A stretch of 64,000 bases of DNA from Methylogaea oryzae (lineage in GTDB: Bacteria; Pseudomonadota; Gammaproteobacteria; Methylococcales; Methylococcaceae): positions 2,350,001-2,414,000 of the forward strand of contig NZ_AP019782.1 in NCBI RefSeq assembly GCF_019669985.1, read 5' to 3'. The notes beneath the pieces are model-generated. The model worked only from the letters and a program-made list of their open reading frames with translations, was not told the origin of the DNA and did no database searches. The translations under genes and the position numbers were made by a program. Shown piece by piece: positions 896 through 33,000 of this stretch (positions are counted from its first letter, which is position 1; each line of letters begins with the position of its first letter).

Positions 896-3445
896 ATGAC
901 AGACCACTTCCGCCGGCTAGAAGCCATACCCCTGAGCTGGAACGACCTCAGCAACGACCAGAAAAACGCGGTGGAAGCCGTCTCCGCTTGGCTGGTCAAT
1001 GCCATCGACGCCATACCCGCCCGGCAAGAACGCCACTTCCGCCCGGCCTATCCCTTACCGCTGCTGGATCACAATCGCCGCAGTCAACTGGCTTTCATTG
1101 ACGGCGACCGCGGCACAGGGAAAAGCTCGGTACTGCTGACCTTGCAAAATATGACGATATCGGCTGAACCCGATCACAGCTATGCCAGTGATTTATATGA
1201 AGATCATAAGTTCAACGCTTTTGAGCGTCTGGATAAGCTGAGGCAGCACGTGGTCTGGCTTGAAACCCTGGACATGGAACCCCTGTCGCGGGGCACCAAT
1301 TTGTTCGCCGCCATCCTCGCCCGCATCGCCAAAATGCTGGACGCCGGCCTGCACGGGCTGCCGCCCATCGCCGCCGCCCTGGAAAAGCCGGACGGCCTGG
1401 CCGACGTGCTGGCGAAACTGCACCAGCTGCAAAACGACGCGGCCATCGTATGGGACCGGATGGACGGCACAGGCCAAGGTGGAGATCCTCAAGCACGCGC
1501 CCTCTGGGTAATGCAGGCGGAAAAGGCCGGGCTGGACTTGCACGGCCGGCTTACCGAAGTGCTGGACGGCATTGCCCGCCACCTGCGTTTCGACGGGGTG
1601 GAAAACCCTTTGTTCGTGCTGCCGGTGGACGATTTCGACCTGGCCCCTGCCCATTGTCTGGAACTGCTGCGGCTGATCCGCATGATCACCACGCCCCGGC
1701 TGTTTTTTGTGATTGCTGGCAATACCCGCATCGCCGAGTCGGTGCTTAAGCTGCGCACCGAAGGGGATTTGCTCCGCCTCGTCGAAGGCAAGCCGTCCGA
1801 CAGCAACGAAATGCAGGAGCGCGCCGCCGAAATCGCCGCCAACAATATGCGCAAGCTGGTGCCGCCGGGCCAGCGGGCCATGTTGAAGCGATTGCGCCTG
1901 GAAGAAGCGCTTCGTATTAGGGCGGAGCCTAGGGGGCGTTCGCTCAGGGATCGGCTGGCCGACATTCGTTTCGAGGTCAATCAAGCCCCGACCGATAATC
2001 CTGAAATGTCGCTGTCGCAGTTCCTTTTATTGGACGAAAAGGCTGTGGGCGGCGCTTCCATGACGGCGGAATGGCTAGCCGGCACGCCGAGGCAGGCGCT
2101 CGACTATGCGGAAATGCTGGCCAAATTCGTCCGCCCAAGAACCCAAGCAACGACGACCGATAAAGGTAAAAGCCGGGCAAGGAACATGGCGAAGGACGCC
2201 CCACGCCATATTCAGTATCGACATGACGATCAACTGCTTTCTGTACTGTTGGAAGATATTGGGCGCCAGATAAAAGAAGACTGGATTCTGCCCTACGCGC
2301 TACGGCAGCGGCTGACCGACAAACTCGATACCTCTTTAGGTATCTCACTGGATTTCCAAAATCAATTGTACGTCGACCAAAGTGCCTTGCGAGAGGAGCT
2401 AAAGACATCCGGTGGGGCCACAGTCATTATAAGTAACCCCTATTTCGCAGGATTATTCATCACCACCGGCCGAGATTCGGCCGGCGGCCAGCCCGACACC
2501 GAAGGGAAACGAAGCGGAATCGAGATTCCTCGCCAAATCGCCTCCGCCGTCTTGTTTGCTCACGATCTGGCGGTATCTCTATGGGGCGGCTATCTCCGGC
2601 ATAGCGCCTTGACTTACGGGACGGAACTAGGCCCGAAAGTAACCGCGGTCTGGGGGTATGGGCAAAAGAAAAATACACCTGTCGTTTGGCCATTGCCCGA
2701 ATGGTGGACTTTCCGCGATTACGAACGGTTCGCCCACCAATGGAGGCTGCACGCGGCGCAATGCGACGGGCGGTATGGGCTAGCCTGGGTCATGGCGATT
2801 CTGGAAGTCGTATGCAACGAAGCCTATGAAGGCGGTAACGAAGGGCTTAGTAAAACTCGCCTGCAACGTCTCCTGAGTTGCATGGCGAATGAGAAACCGA
2901 AACGCATGGCGCGACGCGTCCTTAGGGACAGCGTGCTGACAGCCATCGCGCTGATGTTGGCGCCGGAGTCCGCGTCAGGCTTGGATGTTAGTGCCTTTAC
3001 CGACGAAACAATCGGTTTTATACGCGCCATCAGCAATCAACCTACTTTGGTCGGCAGAATACGCCGGCGCCGCGCACAAATATGGAATCAGGCCAATTAT
3101 CAGGGAATCGCTATAACCAAGCAGGAGATTGAGCTTTGTTTTGCTATTTCTCCAGAGCGCGCAAAGAAGGATTTTAATGATCGTGTACGAGGGCTCACAC
3201 GCTACGCTCAAGTAGAAAAACAAGCAGAACTACTGCGCAAGAGCATCGATTACAATACAAAATTTACTATGCTTAAAACCCTGAAAAATCAGATTAACGC
3301 AACGCATCAGGACGATTTGCTAAATAACCTCGAGACGCTTTTGCTATATGAAGATTACTATAAAGACAAACAGAACAAATTCAATGAACTATGCAATGGT
3401 ATATTCATCCCAGAAGAAGACGATTTCATTATTGCGGGAAATTGA
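896..3445 (+). CDS. rdrA: RADAR defence ATPase RdrA
   Basis: This 849-aa P-loop NTPase has Walker A GDRGTGKSS at residues 70-78 (K76) and a Walker B-like hydrophobic strand ending VDDFDL at about 243-248. A long helical region with no recognised domain follows. In RADAR the ATPase RdrA assembles with the deaminase RdrB to give abortive anti-phage defence. I assign RdrA from the P-loop, the length and above all the next gene, an unusually large adenosine deaminase. The start at 896 is preceded by AAGGAG at 883-888; the longer open frame from 608 extends into low-complexity, non-protein-like sequence. No third RADAR gene (SLATT or Csx27 type) is visible next to it. The last 300 bp are richer in A+T than the body of the gene. 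Confidence 0.85.
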   Translation: MTDHFRRLEAIPLSWNDLSNDQKNAVEAVSAWLVNAIDAIPARQERHFRPAYPLPLLDHNRRSQLAFIDGDRGTGKSSVLLTLQNMTISAEPDHSYASDLYEDHKFNAFERLDKLRQHVVWLETLDMEPLSRGTNLFAAILARIAKMLDAGLHGLPPIAAALEKPDGLADVLAKLHQLQNDAAIVWDRMDGTGQGGDPQARALWVMQAEKAGLDLHGRLTEVLDGIARHLRFDGVENPLFVLPVDDFDLAPAHCLELLRLIRMITTPRLFFVIAGNTRIAESVLKLRTEGDLLRLVEGKPSDSNEMQERAAEIAANNMRKLVPPGQRAMLKRLRLEEALRIRAEPRGRSLRDRLADIRFEVNQAPTDNPEMSLSQFLLLDEKAVGGASMTAEWLAGTPRQALDYAEMLAKFVRPRTQATTTDKGKSRARNMAKDAPRHIQYRHDDQLLSVLLEDIGRQIKEDWILPYALRQRLTDKLDTSLGISLDFQNQLYVDQSALREELKTSGGATVIISNPYFAGLFITTGRDSAGGQPDTEGKRSGIEIPRQIASAVLFAHDLAVSLWGGYLRHSALTYGTELGPKVTAVWGYGQKKNTPVVWPLPEWWTFRDYERFAHQWRLHAAQCDGRYGLAWVMAILEVVCNEAYEGGNEGLSKTRLQRLLSCMANEKPKRMARRVLRDSVLTAIALMLAPESASGLDVSAFTDETIGFIRAISNQPTLVGRIRRRRAQIWNQANYQGIAITKQEIELCFAISPERAKKDFNDRVRGLTRYAQVEKQAELLRKSIDYNTKFTMLKTLKNQINATHQDDLLNNLETLLLYEDYYKDKQNKFNELCNGIFIPEEDDFIIAGN

Positions 3446-3451
3446 ATAACG

Positions 3452-3536
3452 CGTAGCCTGGGTTGGAGCAAGAGCGGAAACCCGGCATGGCCGGCGAACC
3501 AATCGCCGGGTTTCGTAGACTCAACTCAGCCTACAC
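3452..3536. repeat. Imperfect intergenic palindrome between rdrA and rdrB
   Basis: GAAACCCGGC at 3477-3486 pairs with GCCGGGTTTC at 3505-3514. Outside it, GTAGCCTGGGTTGG (from 3452) pairs imperfectly with CAACTCAGCCTAC (ending 3534). The whole resembles the dispersed 'GTAGCCTGGGTT...AACCC' intergenic palindromes common in proteobacteria. It has no T-run, so it is more likely a mobile or REP-like element, or an mRNA-stabilising hairpin, than a terminator. Confidence 0.6.
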
Positions 3537-3558
3537 GCCGAATCGGCCCGACTGGACA

Positions 3559-3581
3559 GTCCCCACGCGCAGCGTGGGGAC
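3559..3581. repeat. REP-like perfect hairpin between rdrA and rdrB
   Basis: GTCCCCACGC (3559-3568) and GCGTGGGGAC (3572-3581) form a 10-bp stem with a 3-nt loop, 72 bp before rdrB. The sequence is of the common 'TCCCCACGC..GCGTGGGGA' REP type. It resembles half of a type I-E CRISPR repeat but is single. Confidence 0.55.
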
Positions 3582-3652
3582 GCTTAAACCAGGAAATCTG
3601 AAAAAACCCGGCCGCCCGATAACGGCGGCGATAATGTGATTTGGTTATTGCC

Positions 3653-6265
3653 ATGCATAGCCCAGCCGGCCTGCGCACTTCCTCTTTTCCCACCGAACAC
3701 CTGGACGCCGAACTGCTGGCGGCGCCGTTTGCCGCCCGTAGCGCTTTCGACGGCGCCCTGGCCGTGCTGGAACCGGACCTAAACAACGCAATGGCGCTGC
3801 TGTGGCGCGAAGCGGAAAAGGACCTGCTGTTCCGCTTTCCCGGCATCTCGGTGGACGAATTGATTTTCCGGCGGGACCAAACCTGGTTCGGCGCGCCGGA
3901 GCCGGACAGCAAGCCTGTGCCGCTGGCCGCAGTGTTGTGCCGATCCACGCGCGAGCTATTGACGCCGGATGCCGGGCGGGCTCACTTATGCAGCCATTCG
4001 CCCGGCACGGAGGCGGAGCGGCGGCGGGTATGGCGCTGGCTGACTTTCGCCTTGCCGGCTGACTTGCTGCTAGCCGCCGCCGATGCCGACACCGAGCGGC
4101 TGGAGACGGTATCGCCCAGGCTCCGCGCCCAATTGGCGGACCGCGGTTTGGCCGAGCCCCACCTGCACCTGAAAGCCGCCATCGGTTTTCCCGCCCTATG
4201 GGCTTCGGCGATGCGCTCCCTGGCGCGGACGGATGCCAAGGCAGACATGCTGGACAGCCCCGGCGCCGAGTGGGACGAGGGCAAGTCGCTGGCGCCCTTG
4301 CTGCTGCGCTGCGCCCTGGCCCGGCTGCTGTTGGCGGCTTTCCTACGTACTCCGTCGGCTTGGGGCCAAGGATTCGGCGATTTTCTGGAAAAACATGCCG
4401 CACCCGGCCTGCATAGCCGTTTCGGCGCCCTGGACTGCCGGCCTTTGTGGCGCACGGTCTATAGCTTGGCTGCGGGCCAAGCGGAGCGAGGCGATGCTTT
4501 TGCCGTGCTGCGCGACCTGTACGCCCGCTTGATCGGCCCTGCCCGTGCCGGCTGCGCGGTGGCTGAACTCGATCCGGTCAGCCACTGGTTTGCGCCCGCG
4601 GCAGACAACCATCCGGATTTTGCTTTGACCCGCGCGGCGCTGGCTTATCTGAACCGGCAAGGCGCTGGAGACAAGCTGTTCGCCAAGCTGTTCTGGCAAA
4701 CGGTGCGCGGCCGGGTGATTTTTTTCCGCCACGTGGTGCAGCGGCCGATGACTCCCGGCCTGCAATGGTTTTCCCGCACCTATGGGCGTTTGTCCGCGCC
4801 GCGCAAGGCGGTGCCGGAAGCGGCGTTCGTACGCCAAGCCGCGGAGCTTGCCGGGCCGGGGCTGCGGGCGCTGGAAGTGCGCATCACGCCGAATTCCGAA
4901 ATGGCGGAGATGGCCGCCACGCTGAGTCGCCTGGACCAGGCTGGACAGGGCCTGCCCAGACGACCGGGCGGAGCCCCTGTCGAGTTGGGCATCACTTTCC
5001 ATTTTTCCCGCAGCCGCGGCCCAGCGACGGACCAGGGCAAGCCGGCTGCCTGGAGCCGCGCCAGCCACGACGACCCGGACTGGCGAGACGCAAAGGAAAA
5101 AACCAGCAACCCTTCCGGTTACCGCTATTCCGGCTATTACCGCGAACAAAGGGGGGCTGCGGTGGCCCTGGCCGCCTTACTCATGGCCTACCCGCGCCTG
5201 CTCGAGCGGGTGCGCGGCATCGACCTTTGCACCGACGAACTGGGCGTGCCGCTATGGGTGGTCAAGCCGTTGGTGGAGCACGTGCAACGGGCGGCCAACG
5301 AGGCGGCGAAGTACCTGCACCGCCTGGAAGGCGGCGATCCACGCCCCTTGGGCGTCACCGTGCACGCCGGCGAGGACTTCGTGCACCTTTGGGGCGGCAT
5401 CCGGCGGGTGGACGAAACGGTGGAATTGCTGCAACTGGGCGAGGGTTCGCGCATCGGCCACGCGGTGGCGTTGGGCGTGGATGTGGAGGCCTGGGCGGCG
5501 CAAAAGCGCCGGCTGGTTATCCCCCTCGGCGAGCGGCTGCTGGATTTGCTCTGGGCCTGGCGGGTGGCCCGGCGAGTGCCGGAGCGGCTGCAAGCCTGGT
5601 TGCCCTGGATCGACCAGGAATTGCTCATGCTCGGCCATGAGCTGTTCGGCCGAAAGATTTCAGCCAGCGAAATGGACCGCTGGTGGTTGTCTTTGCACGA
5701 CAGCCGGATTTTGCGCTCGGTGGGCTTTTCCGATGGGCCCAGCCCTCGAGGGCTGGAGGAAGACGATCCGTGGCAGCGAGATTTGGTCTACCGCTGGCTG
5801 ACCGACCATGCGCTGTTCAGGCGGGCACAGCAACTGGTGCCAGTGAAAGTCGGCCCAGAAGTAGGCTTGGTCAAAGCATTGCAGGCGCATGTGCGGGGTG
5901 AACTAGCCAAGCGCTGCATCGTCGTGGAAATCAACCCCAGCTCCAACCTGCTCATCGGCCACCTGGGCGACCTGACTTCCCATCCGCTGTGGCGCTTGTG
6001 CCCACCGCCGGGCATTGCCGGGGACGCCCCGGCGGTGCGGGTCTGCATCGGTTCCGACGATCCCATCACCTTTACCACCAGCCTCCCGGAGGAATACCAG
6101 TTACTCGCCGACGCGTTGACAGAAGCCGGCTTGGCCGGTCCGGACGTGGATGCATGGCTGGAAGAAGCGCGCCTTTGCGGTCTGAGCGCCCGATTCACCG
6201 TGCCGCGCAGCGGCAAGGACTTATTCAGCCCGATGCGGGCCGACACGCTGCCGCCGCCACTTTGA
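3653..6265 (+). CDS. rdrB: RADAR adenosine deaminase RdrB
   Basis: This 870-aa protein carries adenosine-deaminase metal and substrate motifs spread over a long chain: HLH at 170-172, H571-A-G-E574-D, RIGHA with H603, and SDDP at about 801-804. Ordinary adenosine deaminases are about 350 aa. The roughly 400-residue separation between HxH and HxGE is the insertion-rich layout of RdrB, which converts adenosine-type substrates to inosine during phage infection (RNA editing and nucleotide deamination have both been reported). All zinc ligands and the catalytic Glu are present, so the enzyme should be active. The ATG at 3653 is preferred; a TTG at 3641 is in frame and neither has a strong ribosome-binding site. 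It lies 207 bp after rdrA with palindromes between, so expression of the two may be uneven. Confidence 0.88.
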
Positions 6266-14020: not shown

Positions 14021-14172
14021 AATTCCCGCATCCCCTGTCTACGTTCGCCCCCTGCCAGGCGGTTGAAAAAGGGGCTTTTCAACAGACTGCAAGGAAGCGC
14101 GTCGAAATTTCGCCGAACCGGCCAAAGTTTTCGTTCGCCAGCTACACTTGTCGCTCGACAACAATAATAAGA

Positions 14173-14523
14173 ATGCCTTCCATGCAATTCGAATCCATCA
14201 CACTGCCGAACGCCGTCACCCAGTTTATCCTGAGCGGCCGTCTCGATCCCGCCGGCACCCAGGCCATCGAGAACTCGTTCGCCTTCGCCAGCACGGCGGA
14301 AACGGCCAACATCATCGTAGACCTTTCCGGCGTGGACTTCATCGCCTCCATCGGCATCCGCCTGCTGATGACCTCGGCCCGGGGACAAGCCAAAAAAGGC
14401 GGCAAGCTGGTTCTCGCCTCGCCCCAGCCGCTGGTGCGCAAGGTGCTGGAAACGGCCGGCATCGATCTGCTGGTCCCCCTCTACGCCGATATCGAAGCAG
14501 CCTGCGCCGATCTCGCCCCATGA
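14173..14523 (+). CDS. STAS-domain anti-sigma factor antagonist (RsbV/SpoIIAA type)
   Basis: This 116-aa single STAS domain has the conserved switch segment VDFIASIGIRLL, where the Ser before Ile-Gly-Ile is the usual phosphorylation site. In partner switching the unphosphorylated antagonist binds an RsbW-type kinase and frees its client; a SpoIIE-type phosphatase reactivates it. Both opposing activities sit on the next protein, whose start overlaps this stop (ATGA at 14520-14523), so this gene encodes that protein's probable substrate. No sigma factor is encoded nearby. Confidence 0.9.
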   Translation: MPSMQFESITLPNAVTQFILSGRLDPAGTQAIENSFAFASTAETANIIVDLSGVDFIASIGIRLLMTSARGQAKKGGKLVLASPQPLVRKVLETAGIDLLVPLYADIEAACADLAP

Positions 14524-16250
14524 CGGGGCTGCCGCGCCTCCATCGGCTGACGCTGCTCAGCACGCCCCAGCTCACCAGCGAGGCGAGCGCTTGGCTGCGG
14601 GAACTCGGAAAAAACCAGGAGCTGGACGAAGAGCTGCTTTTCAACCTAGATCTCTGCGCCAGCGAGCTGCTGACCAATATCGGCGACTACGCTTACGGCG
14701 GCGCCGTGGGCGAAATCGGCCTGGAACTGCTGCTCAACCGCAACGCCGCCACGCTGACGCTCGTGGATGCCGGCCCGCCCTTCGATCCCCTAGCGCAACC
14801 GGCCCCCACCCTGCCCGATTCGCTGGAAAACGCGCCGACGGGTGGGCTCGGCATCCATCTGGTGCGCCAATTCGCCGATACCGTGCATTACGAACGCAGC
14901 GACGAGCGCAACCGCCTCACCGTGTGTTTCGGCAGCACGCCGCTGGCCCCGCGCCAGCGGGAGCGCCGCAGCGGGCAAGAGGTCGCCTTTCCGCTGATCC
15001 GCGGCGACGGCACCTGGGTGGAGCACGACCAGCGCAAAGGATCGGACCGCCGGGCGTTGGGCTTCATCTCCCGCACCGTCATCTTCCGCGACGTGCCTTA
15101 CCGCGAAGTGGAACACATCGTTTCCTGCTGCGAGCTGCGCACCTGCCCCAGCGGAGAAGTCCTGTTCCACGCCGGCAGGCACCACCACTGCGTGCTGGTG
15201 ATCGTCGACGGCCGACTGGAAGTGCGGCTGGACAGCCCGGAATCGCGCACCGGCATCGAAATCGGGCCGGGCGAATGCGTCGGCGAACTGTCGGTGGCCG
15301 ACGGCAAGCCAAACTCGGCTTGGGTCGTGGCCGCCACGCCCGTACGCCTGCTGGTGATTCCCGAAGCCGTGTTCCTCGACCAGGTGCTGAGCATTCCCGC
15401 CATCGCCCGCAACCTGATCGTGGTGCTGTCCGAACGCATGCGGCGCAGCAACGCGCAAATCACCGCCCGCCTGCGCGCCGCCCTGGAGCTGGAAGCCCTG
15501 CAGCGGGAACTGGACGTGGCGCGGCAAATCCAGTCCAGCATGCTGCCCGCCGCGCCGCTGTTCCCGATCCAGGAAGACATCCGCGGCCGGGGCTTCATGC
15601 GCGCCGCCCGCCACGTCGGCGGCGACTTCTATGACGCCTTTCCCCTCGGCGACGGCCGATTTTTTCTGGCCATCGGCGACGTGTGCAACAAAGGCACGCC
15701 CGCCGCCCTGTTCATGGTGCGCGCGTTGACCCTGCTGCGCAGCGAAGCGTTGCGCCCGGAGGACGACGCGGGCCGGCACCTGGCCCGCCTGGCCGCCCAC
15801 AGCAACGAACTGCTGTGCGACTCCAACGAGGCCCAGCAATTCGTCACGCTGTTCTGCGCCATCGTGGACCTACCCCAAGGCCGCTTGCACTATGTCAACG
15901 CGGGCCACAATCCGCCCTTGCTGCGCTTGCCGAACGCGGCGCCGGCGTTTATCGAAGGCCCGCGCAATCCGCTGGTGGGTTTGGTCCCGGGCCTGAGCTA
16001 CGCGGTGGACAGCTGCGATTTCCCCGCCGGCAGCCTGCTGCTGCTTTACACCGACGGCGTCACCGAAGCGGAATGCGCCGACGGCGGCCTGTTCAGCGAC
16101 GAAACCTTGCACCGGCTGCTGGCCGACAACAACGCCGCGGACGCCGACGCCTGCGTGGAACAAGTCATCGCCGCGGTGGACGCTTTTGCCGCCGGCCACC
16201 CCCAATCCGACGACATCACCCTGCTGGCCGTCCACCGCCAGACCCCCTAA
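14520..16250 (+). CDS. RsbW-like kinase / cNMP-like / SpoIIE phosphatase fusion
   Basis: This 576-aa protein has three domains. Residues 1-140 are a GHKL ATPase of the anti-sigma kinase type, with ELLTNIGDYAY, DAGPPFDP and GGLGIHLVRQFAD. Residues 180-300 are a cyclic-nucleotide-binding-like barrel with GECVGELSVADG followed by KPNSAWV, where the phosphate-binding Arg expected in that cassette appears replaced. Residues 340-576 are a PP2C/SpoIIE phosphatase with GGDFYDAF, GDVCNKGTPA, NAGHNPPLL, YTDGVTEA and SDDITLL, so the metal-binding Asp residues are intact. Kinase and phosphatase for the STAS partner are thus on one chain, with a sensor-like barrel between. The output could be a sigma factor or another target elsewhere. 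Confidence 0.88.
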   Translation: MTGLPRLHRLTLLSTPQLTSEASAWLRELGKNQELDEELLFNLDLCASELLTNIGDYAYGGAVGEIGLELLLNRNAATLTLVDAGPPFDPLAQPAPTLPDSLENAPTGGLGIHLVRQFADTVHYERSDERNRLTVCFGSTPLAPRQRERRSGQEVAFPLIRGDGTWVEHDQRKGSDRRALGFISRTVIFRDVPYREVEHIVSCCELRTCPSGEVLFHAGRHHHCVLVIVDGRLEVRLDSPESRTGIEIGPGECVGELSVADGKPNSAWVVAATPVRLLVIPEAVFLDQVLSIPAIARNLIVVLSERMRRSNAQITARLRAALELEALQRELDVARQIQSSMLPAAPLFPIQEDIRGRGFMRAARHVGGDFYDAFPLGDGRFFLAIGDVCNKGTPAALFMVRALTLLRSEALRPEDDAGRHLARLAAHSNELLCDSNEAQQFVTLFCAIVDLPQGRLHYVNAGHNPPLLRLPNAAPAFIEGPRNPLVGLVPGLSYAVDSCDFPAGSLLLLYTDGVTEAECADGGLFSDETLHRLLADNNAADADACVEQVIAAVDAFAAGHPQSDDITLLAVHRQTP

Positions 16251-29206: not shown

Positions 29207-30223
29207 TCATGTTGTCTTCTTCGATTTTGCCGCCGGGTTGGATTTAAGTTTTTTTTCCAGACGCTCAATTTCCTGAATGTCGGCGGCCTCCGCCTCCTGC
29301 GCCTCGGTGGCGCGGCGGTTTCGATCAAATAAGTCATAGCGCCCGTGCGCGATACGCACCATCTCTTCATGGCTCACCGAGCCGGAGCCTTGCAAAACCG
29401 GCTGACCGTTGAATGCCAGCATGCCATCCACATGATTGCGCCAGAAATCGAGCGACAGATCGCCCTGCTTTTTTACCCGTAGCTCTGCCTGTTCCAGAAA
29501 AATAACCACCAGCCGGTTCAGCGTGTCGATTTCGTCTCCCGTGAGATAATTCTTGGCGATGATGACATCCTGCTTGCGCACGCGAGAACCGCTGAAATGC
29601 GTGAGCGCCATGTTCGGCGCTCCTGACTCGGCGCGTTGCACAATCAGCTCTGCTGCCGTCAGCCCACAGGCGGCGTAAAGGAGTTTGTTCTGGACCTCGG
29701 CGAAGAATAGCTGCGTCTCCTTTTCCCGTACACGGTAATCCGAGCTGAGCGCAAACAGGTCGCGCACCTTCTGGTAAAACCGCTTTTCCGAGGCGCGAAT
29801 CTCCCGGATGCGCGCCAGTAGTTCGTCGAAATAATCCCAGCCACCGGGGTTCTTGAGGCGCTCGTCATCCATGACAAAACCCTTCGTTAGAAACTCCTTG
29901 AGGTGCCGGGTAGCCCACTGACGGAACTGGGTGCCGCGTGGCGAGCGGATGCGATAGCCAATGGCCAGAATCAGTTCCAGATGGTAAAGCTGGGTGCGGT
30001 AGCTCTTGCCGTCGGCAGCAGTTGTCAAGGATTCCTTGACAACTGAATCAGGGCTTAACTCGCCTTCCGTAAAGATGTTCTTGGCGTGAAGCGAGACATT
30101 CTGCTTGGAGGTCTGGAACAGTTCGGCGATTTCGAGTTGAGTCAGCCAGACGCTACCCGCCTCCACCCGCAGATTGATTCTGGCTTGACCGTCGTCAGAG
30201 GTATAAAGAATCAGGTCGCTCAT
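29207..30223 (-). CDS. RhuM-family (virulence-associated) protein
   Basis: This 338-aa protein begins with a winged-helix DNA-binding segment (SVWLTQLEIAELFQTSKQNV), then the RhuM core: YHLELILAIGYRIRSPRGTQFRQWAT, KEFLTKGFVMDDERLK, and the C-terminal NMALTHFSGSRVRKQDVIIAKNYL. RhuM proteins are frequent inside restriction and defence loci, but their biochemical role is not settled. The start overlaps the methyltransferase stop (ATGA at 30220-30223), so the two are translationally coupled. It appears complete, unlike the deleted relative at 24365-24721. Confidence 0.85.
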   Translation of the reverse strand: MSDLILYTSDDGQARINLRVEAGSVWLTQLEIAELFQTSKQNVSLHAKNIFTEGELSPDSVVKESLTTAADGKSYRTQLYHLELILAIGYRIRSPRGTQFRQWATRHLKEFLTKGFVMDDERLKNPGGWDYFDELLARIREIRASEKRFYQKVRDLFALSSDYRVREKETQLFFAEVQNKLLYAACGLTAAELIVQRAESGAPNMALTHFSGSRVRKQDVIIAKNYLTGDEIDTLNRLVVIFLEQAELRVKKQGDLSLDFWRNHVDGMLAFNGQPVLQGSGSVSHEEMVRIAHGRYDLFDRNRRATEAQEAEAADIQEIERLEKKLKSNPAAKSKKTT

Positions 30224-33000
30224 GCTTTTTTCCTCTTCCTTGCAGCGGACGCTGGCTTGGCCGCCGCCGTCATCTTGGTATAAAGCTCGAACAGTTTTTC
30301 CAGCCGCTCGGTGTCGTTCCTGAAGCGGCGGCCGATGTAGATGCGCTCCAGCACCTCGTCGTTGCGCTCGTGGGCGCGGCGCAGGTTGTCCGGCATGTTG
30401 TCGGGGTTGTACAGGTCGGCGATGGTAGCGGGGAAATGGGCTTCACGCGCCAGCAGGATGTCCTCGGCGCAGCGGGTCAGGTCGGCCTTGTTCTGCTCGG
30501 TGAGCAGGGGAACGGGGAAGGTGTTCCAGCCCAGGGTGTTGGAGTAGCGGAAGTCTGTTTTCATCTTGCCGCAGACGGTGGCGATCCAGACCAGATGCAG
30601 GCGGGAGGCGATGAGGGCCATATTCCAGAGGGGGGCGTCGTAGAGGGCGAAGGCGAGATTACTGACAACGGAATGGTTGTCAATAAGTCCAACCGGAAGA
30701 TACTCACGGCTTTCCGAAGAAACACCGGGCAGAATCAGGCTATGCCTTTCAGCGCAATTCATTTCCCTGAACTGATGGGCACGCGATGCCATTTCTTTCG
30801 TGCCAGCGTCTTTACTCTTAAGACGCATTTCTTTAACGCCATTGATTCGATCACGAATCGAATCTATTTCCAATGCATGCGGTAAGTTTTCATCGGTAAT
30901 CCAGAGACATTTACGAACAAGGCCACGAATAAACTCCGCCGAGCCATAAATACGCCGAACAAATAATTCTTCGTCCTTTTTACCCAACCCAAGCGAAGTG
31001 ATCTCATCTGCCGAAAGAAGAAGATTTCCTCCGTCAATCGGCATGTTGCCGAAGGACATTTGCGGCAAGCCAGCAATGCTATCGCGCTGGCTATTCACAA
31101 CCATGTTTTCGCCGATGGTTAGATAGGGCGTGATGTTTGTTGCATCTCGAACCGTAGTTTCGCCATCGCGGCCCACATCGCAAAGCTGGCACTTCTTGGT
31201 CGCGTGCGTTGAGAGACCAACGATGGCAACCGTGACGCCAGCGTTGTGACTGGCAAGATTGGCCCACTTGAATGAGGTGTGCGCAAAGCGAATGATTGAA
31301 CCCAACTCGAAAATCTTCGGCCACAAAATTGGCACTATGCGCCCTTGGCAAACTGAGTTCGTGCTTACGAAAGCCGATTCTGCGTTTGTTGACTGTGCGT
31401 AGGCCGCAGCCTTCATGAACCAACCTCCAACGTAGTCAATCTGCTTTGATGAAATGCCGTACGGATCAAAAACCGCAGCCAAGTCGGCTTTCTGTTCTTT
31501 GGTTTGTGTCTGACTACCTTTGTACGGCGGATTCCCGCAGATATAAGTCTCCCCGCCCTCGTTCTCAAAATCGATTTCCGTCTGCTCCAGCGGAGTGCAA
31601 AACAAATCGTCGGCGAGCACCTTCACACCCGTCCCCGTCGGCGGACAGATGCTCAACCAATCCAGCCGCAGCGCATTGCCGCAAATGATCCAGTTTTCCT
31701 TCGACAAGGGCAGGAATTCCAGCAGTGCGTCCTTTTGCCCGCGATACAGCACGTCGCACTGGAATTCGGCGATGATGAGGGCCAGCCGGGCGATTTCCGC
31801 CGGGAAATCGCGCAGTTCGATGCCGCGGAAGTTGGTCAGCGGGATTTCCGATTTCAGGTGGGTTTCGCCCCGGCGCCGGTTGATTTCGTATTCGATCTCC
31901 CGCATCTGCTTATAGGCGATGACCAAGAAATTGCCGCTGCCGCAGGCCGGGTCGAACACGCGGATGCGCGCCATGCGGCGGCGCAGATTGAGCAACTTAC
32001 GCTCGTTGTCGCCAGCCTCGGCCAAAGCGGCGCGCAGGTCGTCCAGGAACAGCGGGTTCAATACCTTGAGGATGTTGGGCACGCTGGTGTAGTGCATGCC
32101 TAAGGCGCCGCGCTCTTCGTCGTCGGCCACGGCCTGGATCATGCTGCCGAAGATGTCCGGGTTGATCTGCTTCCAGTTCAGGCTGCCGGCATGGATCAGG
32201 TAGGTGCGGGCCATGCGGGTGAAGCGGGGCGTTTCGGTGCCGCCGGAGAACAGGCCGCCGTTCACGTAAGGAAAGCCATCGGCCCAGGTGGGCAAACGGG
32301 GTTCGGCGTTACCGCGCTCGGCGGGTTTGATGTTCATGGCGCGGAAAATTTCGGACAGCACCTGATGGGTGTTGGAACCGTTGTTCTCGCCCATCTGCTT
32401 CACGGTCTCGGTAAACAGGCCATCGCCGTTGAAGATGTCGGTGTCTTCGGCGAAGAAGCAGAAGATCAGCCGCGCCATGAAGTGGTTCATGTCCGGGCGG
32501 CGCTCGGCGACGGCCCAGTCCGGATTTTCCCGCAGCAGTTCGACGTAGAGCTTGTTCAGCCGCCCGGTGGCGCGCACATCAATGGGGTTGTCCTTGATCT
32601 CCTTGATGGTGGAGATGCCGGCCAGCGGCAGGAAGAACCCGAGATGATTGGGAAAGTCCGGGTAGGCGCAGGCGATGGTCTCGCCGCCGGCCAGTTCTTC
32701 GGCTTCCAGGGTCTGCCCGTCGGTGGCGAGGATAAACTTAGGCTTGGCCTTGGCGGTGGCCGGGCTGGCACGCAAGGCCTTGAGGGTTTCGCCCACGGCG
32801 CCGGCTTCGCACACGGCAATATGGATGTTGTTGCGCTGGAGCACGCCGCCGGGCACATCCGAGGCGTTGCCGGCGCGCAGGCGCTTGAGAGCCGTTTCCT
32901 TGTTGCCGAAGGCGGCCAGGAAAGCGAAGGGGAACTCGGCCGCGTCGAAGGCTTGGAGCGCCAGGTCGGATATGGCGGCTTCGATTTCTACTGCGTTCAT
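30220..33000 (-). CDS. Class I SAM-dependent DNA methyltransferase (adenine type, MmeI-like)
   Basis: This 926-aa protein has SAM motif I DPACGSGNFL (D350) and catalytic motif IV NPPY (N490), the pair typical of N6-adenine gamma-class methyltransferases. The N-terminal 300 residues are a helical domain conserved in this large class, and the C-terminal part (about 560-926) is the probable target-recognition region. Base composition falls towards A+T at 30660-31450, within that recognition region, as is common for exchanged specificity domains. No nuclease motif is fused. It is first in the island and would protect the host from the helicase/GIY-YIG pair downstream. Confidence 0.85.
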   Translation of the reverse strand: MNAVEIEAAISDLALQAFDAAEFPFAFLAAFGNKETALKRLRAGNASDVPGGVLQRNNIHIAVCEAGAVGETLKALRASPATAKAKPKFILATDGQTLEAEELAGGETIACAYPDFPNHLGFFLPLAGISTIKEIKDNPIDVRATGRLNKLYVELLRENPDWAVAERRPDMNHFMARLIFCFFAEDTDIFNGDGLFTETVKQMGENNGSNTHQVLSEIFRAMNIKPAERGNAEPRLPTWADGFPYVNGGLFSGGTETPRFTRMARTYLIHAGSLNWKQINPDIFGSMIQAVADDEERGALGMHYTSVPNILKVLNPLFLDDLRAALAEAGDNERKLLNLRRRMARIRVFDPACGSGNFLVIAYKQMREIEYEINRRRGETHLKSEIPLTNFRGIELRDFPAEIARLALIIAEFQCDVLYRGQKDALLEFLPLSKENWIICGNALRLDWLSICPPTGTGVKVLADDLFCTPLEQTEIDFENEGGETYICGNPPYKGSQTQTKEQKADLAAVFDPYGISSKQIDYVGGWFMKAAAYAQSTNAESAFVSTNSVCQGRIVPILWPKIFELGSIIRFAHTSFKWANLASHNAGVTVAIVGLSTHATKKCQLCDVGRDGETTVRDATNITPYLTIGENMVVNSQRDSIAGLPQMSFGNMPIDGGNLLLSADEITSLGLGKKDEELFVRRIYGSAEFIRGLVRKCLWITDENLPHALEIDSIRDRINGVKEMRLKSKDAGTKEMASRAHQFREMNCAERHSLILPGVSSESREYLPVGLIDNHSVVSNLAFALYDAPLWNMALIASRLHLVWIATVCGKMKTDFRYSNTLGWNTFPVPLLTEQNKADLTRCAEDILLAREAHFPATIADLYNPDNMPDNLRRAHERNDEVLERIYIGRRFRNDTERLEKLFELYTKMTAAAKPASAARKRKKA

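Follow-up and report, generated by a model that had tools for sequence, protein, structure and literature searches.

The locus at positions 896-6265 of the window is, judging from its sequence, very probably a divergent chromosomal RADAR system of Methylogaea oryzae. The window is the whole 64,000-nt stretch of DNA analyzed (assembly GCF_019669985.1, contig NZ_AP019782.1, positions 2,350,001-2,414,000 of the forward strand), and coordinates below are window positions unless another locus is named. The locus is a new branch of the known RADAR and not a new kind of system, and what makes it interesting is its lineage and how poorly annotation picks it up, rather than the two-gene layout or the palindromes between the genes. 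The tandem rdrA-rdrB order that RADAR requires is present, and family profiles from PADLOC and NCBIfam match both genes, in agreement with the RdrA-RdrB layout proposed in the first-pass annotation, whose stated coordinates are correct. A Shine-Dalgarno-like AAGGAG is separated by seven bases from the ATG of rdrA at 896, and the frame is open through 3445.

883-888, + strand: AAGGAG, Shine-Dalgarno-like, before rdrA (direct sequence reading)
896-3445, + strand: rdrA, predicted divergent RADAR AAA+ ATPase, 849 aa (PADLOC, NCBIfam, profile-profile comparison)
3653-6265, + strand: rdrB, predicted divergent RADAR adenosine-deaminase-fold enzyme, 870 aa (NCBIfam, PADLOC, PDB 8fnw)

RdrB matched the NCBIfam RdrB model at 1.6e-43 (149 bits against a cut-off of 800), the PADLOC RdrB profile at 4.3e-33, and the solved E. 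coli RdrB (PDB 8fnw) at 2.2e-28 across residues 481-832. When RdrB of the lineage was compared with an E. coli-type RdrB profile (hhalign), the match reached 8.3e-52 over 506 columns with 24% identity, and the first 320 residues were left unaligned. The histidine tetrad and the catalytic glutamate are complete (H170, H172, H571, H603, and E574). They correspond to H152, H154, H498, H530, and E501 of E. coli RdrB, for which these roles have been published (PMC9994260). Conservation of the active site was followed in an alignment of 14 diverse RdrB from three phyla.

4160-4168, + strand: HLH with H170 and H172 (E. coli RdrB H152 and H154); histidines invariant in 14 RdrB
5363-5374, + strand: HAGE with H571 and catalytic E574 (E. 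coli H498 and E501); invariant in 14 RdrB
5459-5461, + strand: H603 (E. coli H530); invariant in 14 RdrB
6056-6061, + strand: D802-D803 (D748-D749 of E. coli-type RdrB); invariant in 14 RdrB

All of these residues, including D802 and D803, had been named in the first-pass annotation as zinc ligands. A direct check found every one at its assigned position, but E574 is the catalytic glutamate according to the E. coli structure and not a ligand (PMC9994260).

The RdrA frame also hit RdrA families, namely the PADLOC profile at 5.8e-8 and the NCBIfam model at 5.2e-11 (41.7 bits against a cut-off of 600), in both cases with the ATPase part only. RdrA of the lineage aligned with a profile built from known RdrA, the E. 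coli type among them (hhalign, E 7.4e-13, probability 97.8), with ~20% identity to the E. coli type over 261 columns. In this alignment, the Walker A motifs and the sensor 1 positions coincide, and LPVDDFD pairs with ITFDDID at Walker B. The Walker A lysine, correctly numbered K76 from the outset, is the counterpart of E. coli K82. The sensor 1 residue is Asn in the clade of the window and Asp in most sister-clade members; Asn is usual at this position in AAA+ proteins. A probable sensor 2 arginine, R399, is invariant among 8 lineage members.

1103-1126, + strand: Walker A GDRGTGKS, residues 70-77 with K76, aligned to GTRGAGKT of E. coli-type RdrA
1628-1633, + strand: Walker B D245-D246, aligned with D246-D247 of Pantoea E. 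coli-type RdrA (E. coli D221-D222)
1721-1723, + strand: N276 at the sensor 1 position by alignment; Asp in E. coli RdrA (D253)
2090-2092, + strand: R399, probable sensor 2 arginine, based on motif similarity alone and not within the hhalign alignment

A plain HMM search of solved structures with the lineage RdrA profile matched no RdrA, and its best matches were spurious. The AlphaFold models, computed from two-sequence alignments, had a mean pLDDT of 34.8 for RdrA, with four low-confidence helices at 136-231, and of 41.6 for RdrB; both are unusable as fold evidence.

Although both proteins scored far below the curated NCBIfam cut-offs, such a cut-off is a calling threshold and not a biological feature. 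Our leading reference was a Pantoea plasmid pair, of which RdrA aligns with 8hr7 and RdrB with 8fnw over almost the whole length. Among published RADARs, identity is only 22-25% for the ATPase domain of RdrA and 24-28% for the C-terminal part of RdrB (PMC9994260). By this measure, the distance of the window system from E. coli RADAR is comparable to the distances among the experimentally tested systems. The missed cut-offs most likely reflect narrow models rather than another family. Between the window and its relative in a Methylobacter metagenome-assembled genome (L003), differences per codon position were 0.39/0.29/0.68 for rdrA and 0.32/0.21/0.68 for rdrB. This bias indicates that both genes are under protein-level constraint (purifying selection).

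The same gene pair was found again in distant genomes and is inherited together in related methanotrophs. RdrB matches were present in 20 of 311 Methylococcales genomes, comprising 4 of a close clade (the window, G050 with L003, G033, and a fragment in G037), 9 of a sister clade (including a fragment in G029), and 7 of other RADAR types; the window lineage, i.e., the close and sister clades, thus occurs in 13 of the 311. In a tree of 26 rows, which carries a long-branch warning among the other RADAR types, the window, L003, and L028 grouped at 100/100 and joined the sister clade at 100/100. The L003 system (Methylobacter DP16D_bin.19, SCPZ01000094.1) shares 63% RdrB and 51% RdrA identity with the window, as well as the gene order. 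The sister clade (L029, L030, L070-L075) has the same gene pair with ~35% RdrB identity, but its RdrB is longer (~925-975 aa), and HLH is replaced by HQH in L029 and L030. Outside Methylococcales, a phylum-wide sample of 398 genomes yielded RdrB in ten or so. Of these, nine were scored with both profiles: the E. coli-type profile gave the better score for eight, and the remaining one is a partial frame. Therefore, within this limited sampling of 311 and 398 genomes, the RdrB lineage has so far been seen only in Methylococcales. Of note, two contigs of one genome (G517) each carry an RdrB gene, and the two belong to different RADAR types (L070 and L080).

The system is absent from G001, the only genome of the same genus that was searched. 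In addition, rdrA is AT-rich in its 3' half, with a GC content of 50.6% there and 41.5% in the last 446 bp, against a window mean of 62.8%. Both observations would be compatible with horizontal transfer. Phage records gave no match to the system, a plasmid search with the window RdrA as query gave none, and the four RADAR RdrB found in viral contigs were all of other types, with none of the window lineage. An empty site could not be defined: the downstream ABC-F gene is conserved in relatives, but the DNA upstream of it is not shared with them, and there are no convincing translated matches either.

The window differs from its relatives at the junction of the two genes, where 207 bp with two palindromes separate rdrA from rdrB. 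Relatives show either an overlap of the two genes, which is 4 bp in L003 and L028, or a spacing of no more than 43 bp; larger tabulated overlaps stem from over-extended mechanical starts. L003 has no repeats between its genes, and the gap in the Pantoea E. coli-type locus is ~20 bp. L033 was left out of this comparison because its RdrB is truncated. There (L033:8358-10400, - strand, genome G095), RdrB has only 680 aa and is not preceded by a recognizable RdrA; the system is possibly decayed.

3446-3652, unstranded: 207-bp rdrA-rdrB gap with two palindromes (comparison with relatives)
3477-3514, unstranded: palindrome 1, GAAACCCGGC / GCCGGGTTTC (sequence reading and genome search)
3559-3581, unstranded: palindrome 2, GTCCCCACGC-GCA-GCGTGGGGAC, member of the dispersed GTTCCCACGCNNNGCGTGGGAAC repeat family

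The GTTCCCACGCNNNGCGTGGGAAC family occurs at 9 places in the genome, compared to 0 for a reversed-pattern control, and the left flank of palindrome 1 recurs at 2 further places with 84-86% identity. The hairpins in the gap are stable (fold z -4.2), and the palindromes resemble REP-type repeats. The C-terminus of RdrA matches that of L028 to its end and the N-terminus of RdrB begins at matching residues, so the gap represents extra DNA at the junction, with neither gene damaged. The two palindromes reported earlier are thus real, but a role as a RADAR component was ruled out, as palindrome 2 is a dispersed genomic repeat and relatives lack the gap. A terminator, a promoter, or a known RNA was likewise rejected: terminator and promoter searches of the palindromes gave no more matches than shuffled sequences, and an Rfam search of them gave no family. 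Probably, the two genes once overlapped and the repeats entered later at their junction. Since no Shine-Dalgarno sequence is evident upstream of ATG 3653, a loss of translational coupling of rdrB to rdrA is plausible, and the insertion may have caused this uncoupling.

Neither the window nor L003 has a third ORF beside the gene pair. The absence of an accessory gene noted in the first-pass annotation is therefore correct, but it is not special: RADAR was published as a two-protein system, and the two-gene form is standard, not reduced (PMC9994260). SLATT or Csx27 proteins accompany only some RADAR variants (PMC11676413). In the sister clade, unlike in the window, a gene of 217-235 aa lies just upstream of rdrA in L070, L071, and L073.

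L073:13037-13744, - strand: SLATT_2 (PF18183, 1e-13), upstream of rdrA
L070:4807-5460: SLATT-family gene upstream of rdrA, homologue of the L073 protein
L071:5411-6064: SLATT-family gene upstream of rdrA, homologue of the L073 protein

In the Aureibacter plasmid system (L049), a SLATT gene lies downstream of rdrB. PADLOC gave no match to the SLATT-family proteins of L073 and L070. A SLATT_2 search of the window's own genome gave no match, and no control genome matched either, which confines this negative to the window's own genome. In L029 (positions 2196-5441), a patatin-like DUF3376 protein of 1081 aa ends 122 bp 5' of rdrA; this was seen in G020 only.

The E. coli RADAR (PDB 8fnt, 8fnv, 8fnw, and 8hr7-8hrc) shares with the window the tandem gene order, the positions of Walker A, Walker B, and sensor 1 in RdrA, the histidine tetrad, catalytic Glu, and Asp pair in RdrB, and protein sizes of ~800-950 aa. 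It differs in having Asp instead of Asn at sensor 1 and in overall sequence, as the identities of ~20% (RdrA) and 24% (RdrB) reflect. By analogy with this system (PMC9994260), RdrB would form a multimeric deaminase shell on which RdrA rings would dock, phage infection would trigger the conversion of (d)ATP to (d)ITP, and this conversion would limit phage replication. RdrA of RADAR is known as a heptamer with a crown insertion and an alpha-helical C-terminus, and RdrB as a dodecamer. A function in phage defense is thus inferred by homology. The CARF-fused adenosine deaminase of type III CRISPR (PMC12669630) also uses an adenosine-deaminase fold in defense. In contrast to that enzyme, the window protein is partnered with an AAA+ ATPase and has no CARF domain, as Pfam found A_deaminase only.

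That Pfam match (7e-8) would also be expected from an ordinary metabolic adenosine deaminase that happens to lie beside an unrelated P-loop ATPase. However, the strongest metabolic adenosine deaminase profile reached 5.2e-12, far weaker than the NCBIfam RdrB match, and the length of 870 aa and the recurrence of the gene pair in distant genomes also speak against this explanation, which is hardly credible. A system that is RADAR by descent may nevertheless act differently, with another nucleotide as the deaminase substrate or another trigger for the ATPase. The low RdrA identity to other types, confined to the ATPase part, the unaligned first 320 residues of RdrB, and the Asn at sensor 1 in the window clade would fit such a change. 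On the other hand, the catalytic residues of RdrB are all unchanged, and the similarly divergent RADARs of E. coli, C. rodentium, and S. suis all protect against T-even phages (PMC9994260), which makes a different action unlikely.

The junction repeats could also mean that the system is decaying, with rdrB poorly translated and the defense weak or silent in this strain. The stable hairpins in a 207-bp gap, where relatives have a 4-bp overlap, and the ATG 3653 without an evident Shine-Dalgarno sequence point in this direction. However, neither frame is interrupted and the active sites are complete, RdrA is homologous to its L028 relative up to the C-terminus, and the codon constraint is long-term, although constraint alone does not exclude recent silencing; decay therefore appears quite unlikely. 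We consider it similarly doubtful, though conceivable, that the lineage is a separate, Methylococcales-confined RADAR subtype with its own assembly or trigger, whose RdrA is mostly missed by annotation libraries, and that the repeat makes the ratio of ATPase to deaminase separately adjustable here. A divergent RADAR system that acts as its E. coli counterpart would be the preferred reading.

The locus leaves the understanding of the RADAR mechanism unchanged; it matters for annotation, which rests on profiles that the window lineage barely reaches. PADLOC at 1e-3 gave no match to the sister-clade RdrA of L030 (L030:5988-8681) and L073 (L073:9994-13044). These two systems are likely missed by automatic calling, and RADAR is thus probably under-counted. 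The sequences of the lineage, being very unlike the solved ones, can also serve to identify the essential surfaces of RdrA and RdrB.

In the neighborhood of the RADAR pair, no defense genes were found directly beside it. A 700-aa ORF at 14148-16250 (+ strand) gave weak PADLOC matches to TIR-effector and Pycsar profiles (residues 322-465, 6e-9), and the matched region could be an ordinary signaling domain. About 24 kb from the pair, a Type IIG restriction-methyltransferase is encoded at 30220-33000 on the - strand (PADLOC 2e-278, near full length).
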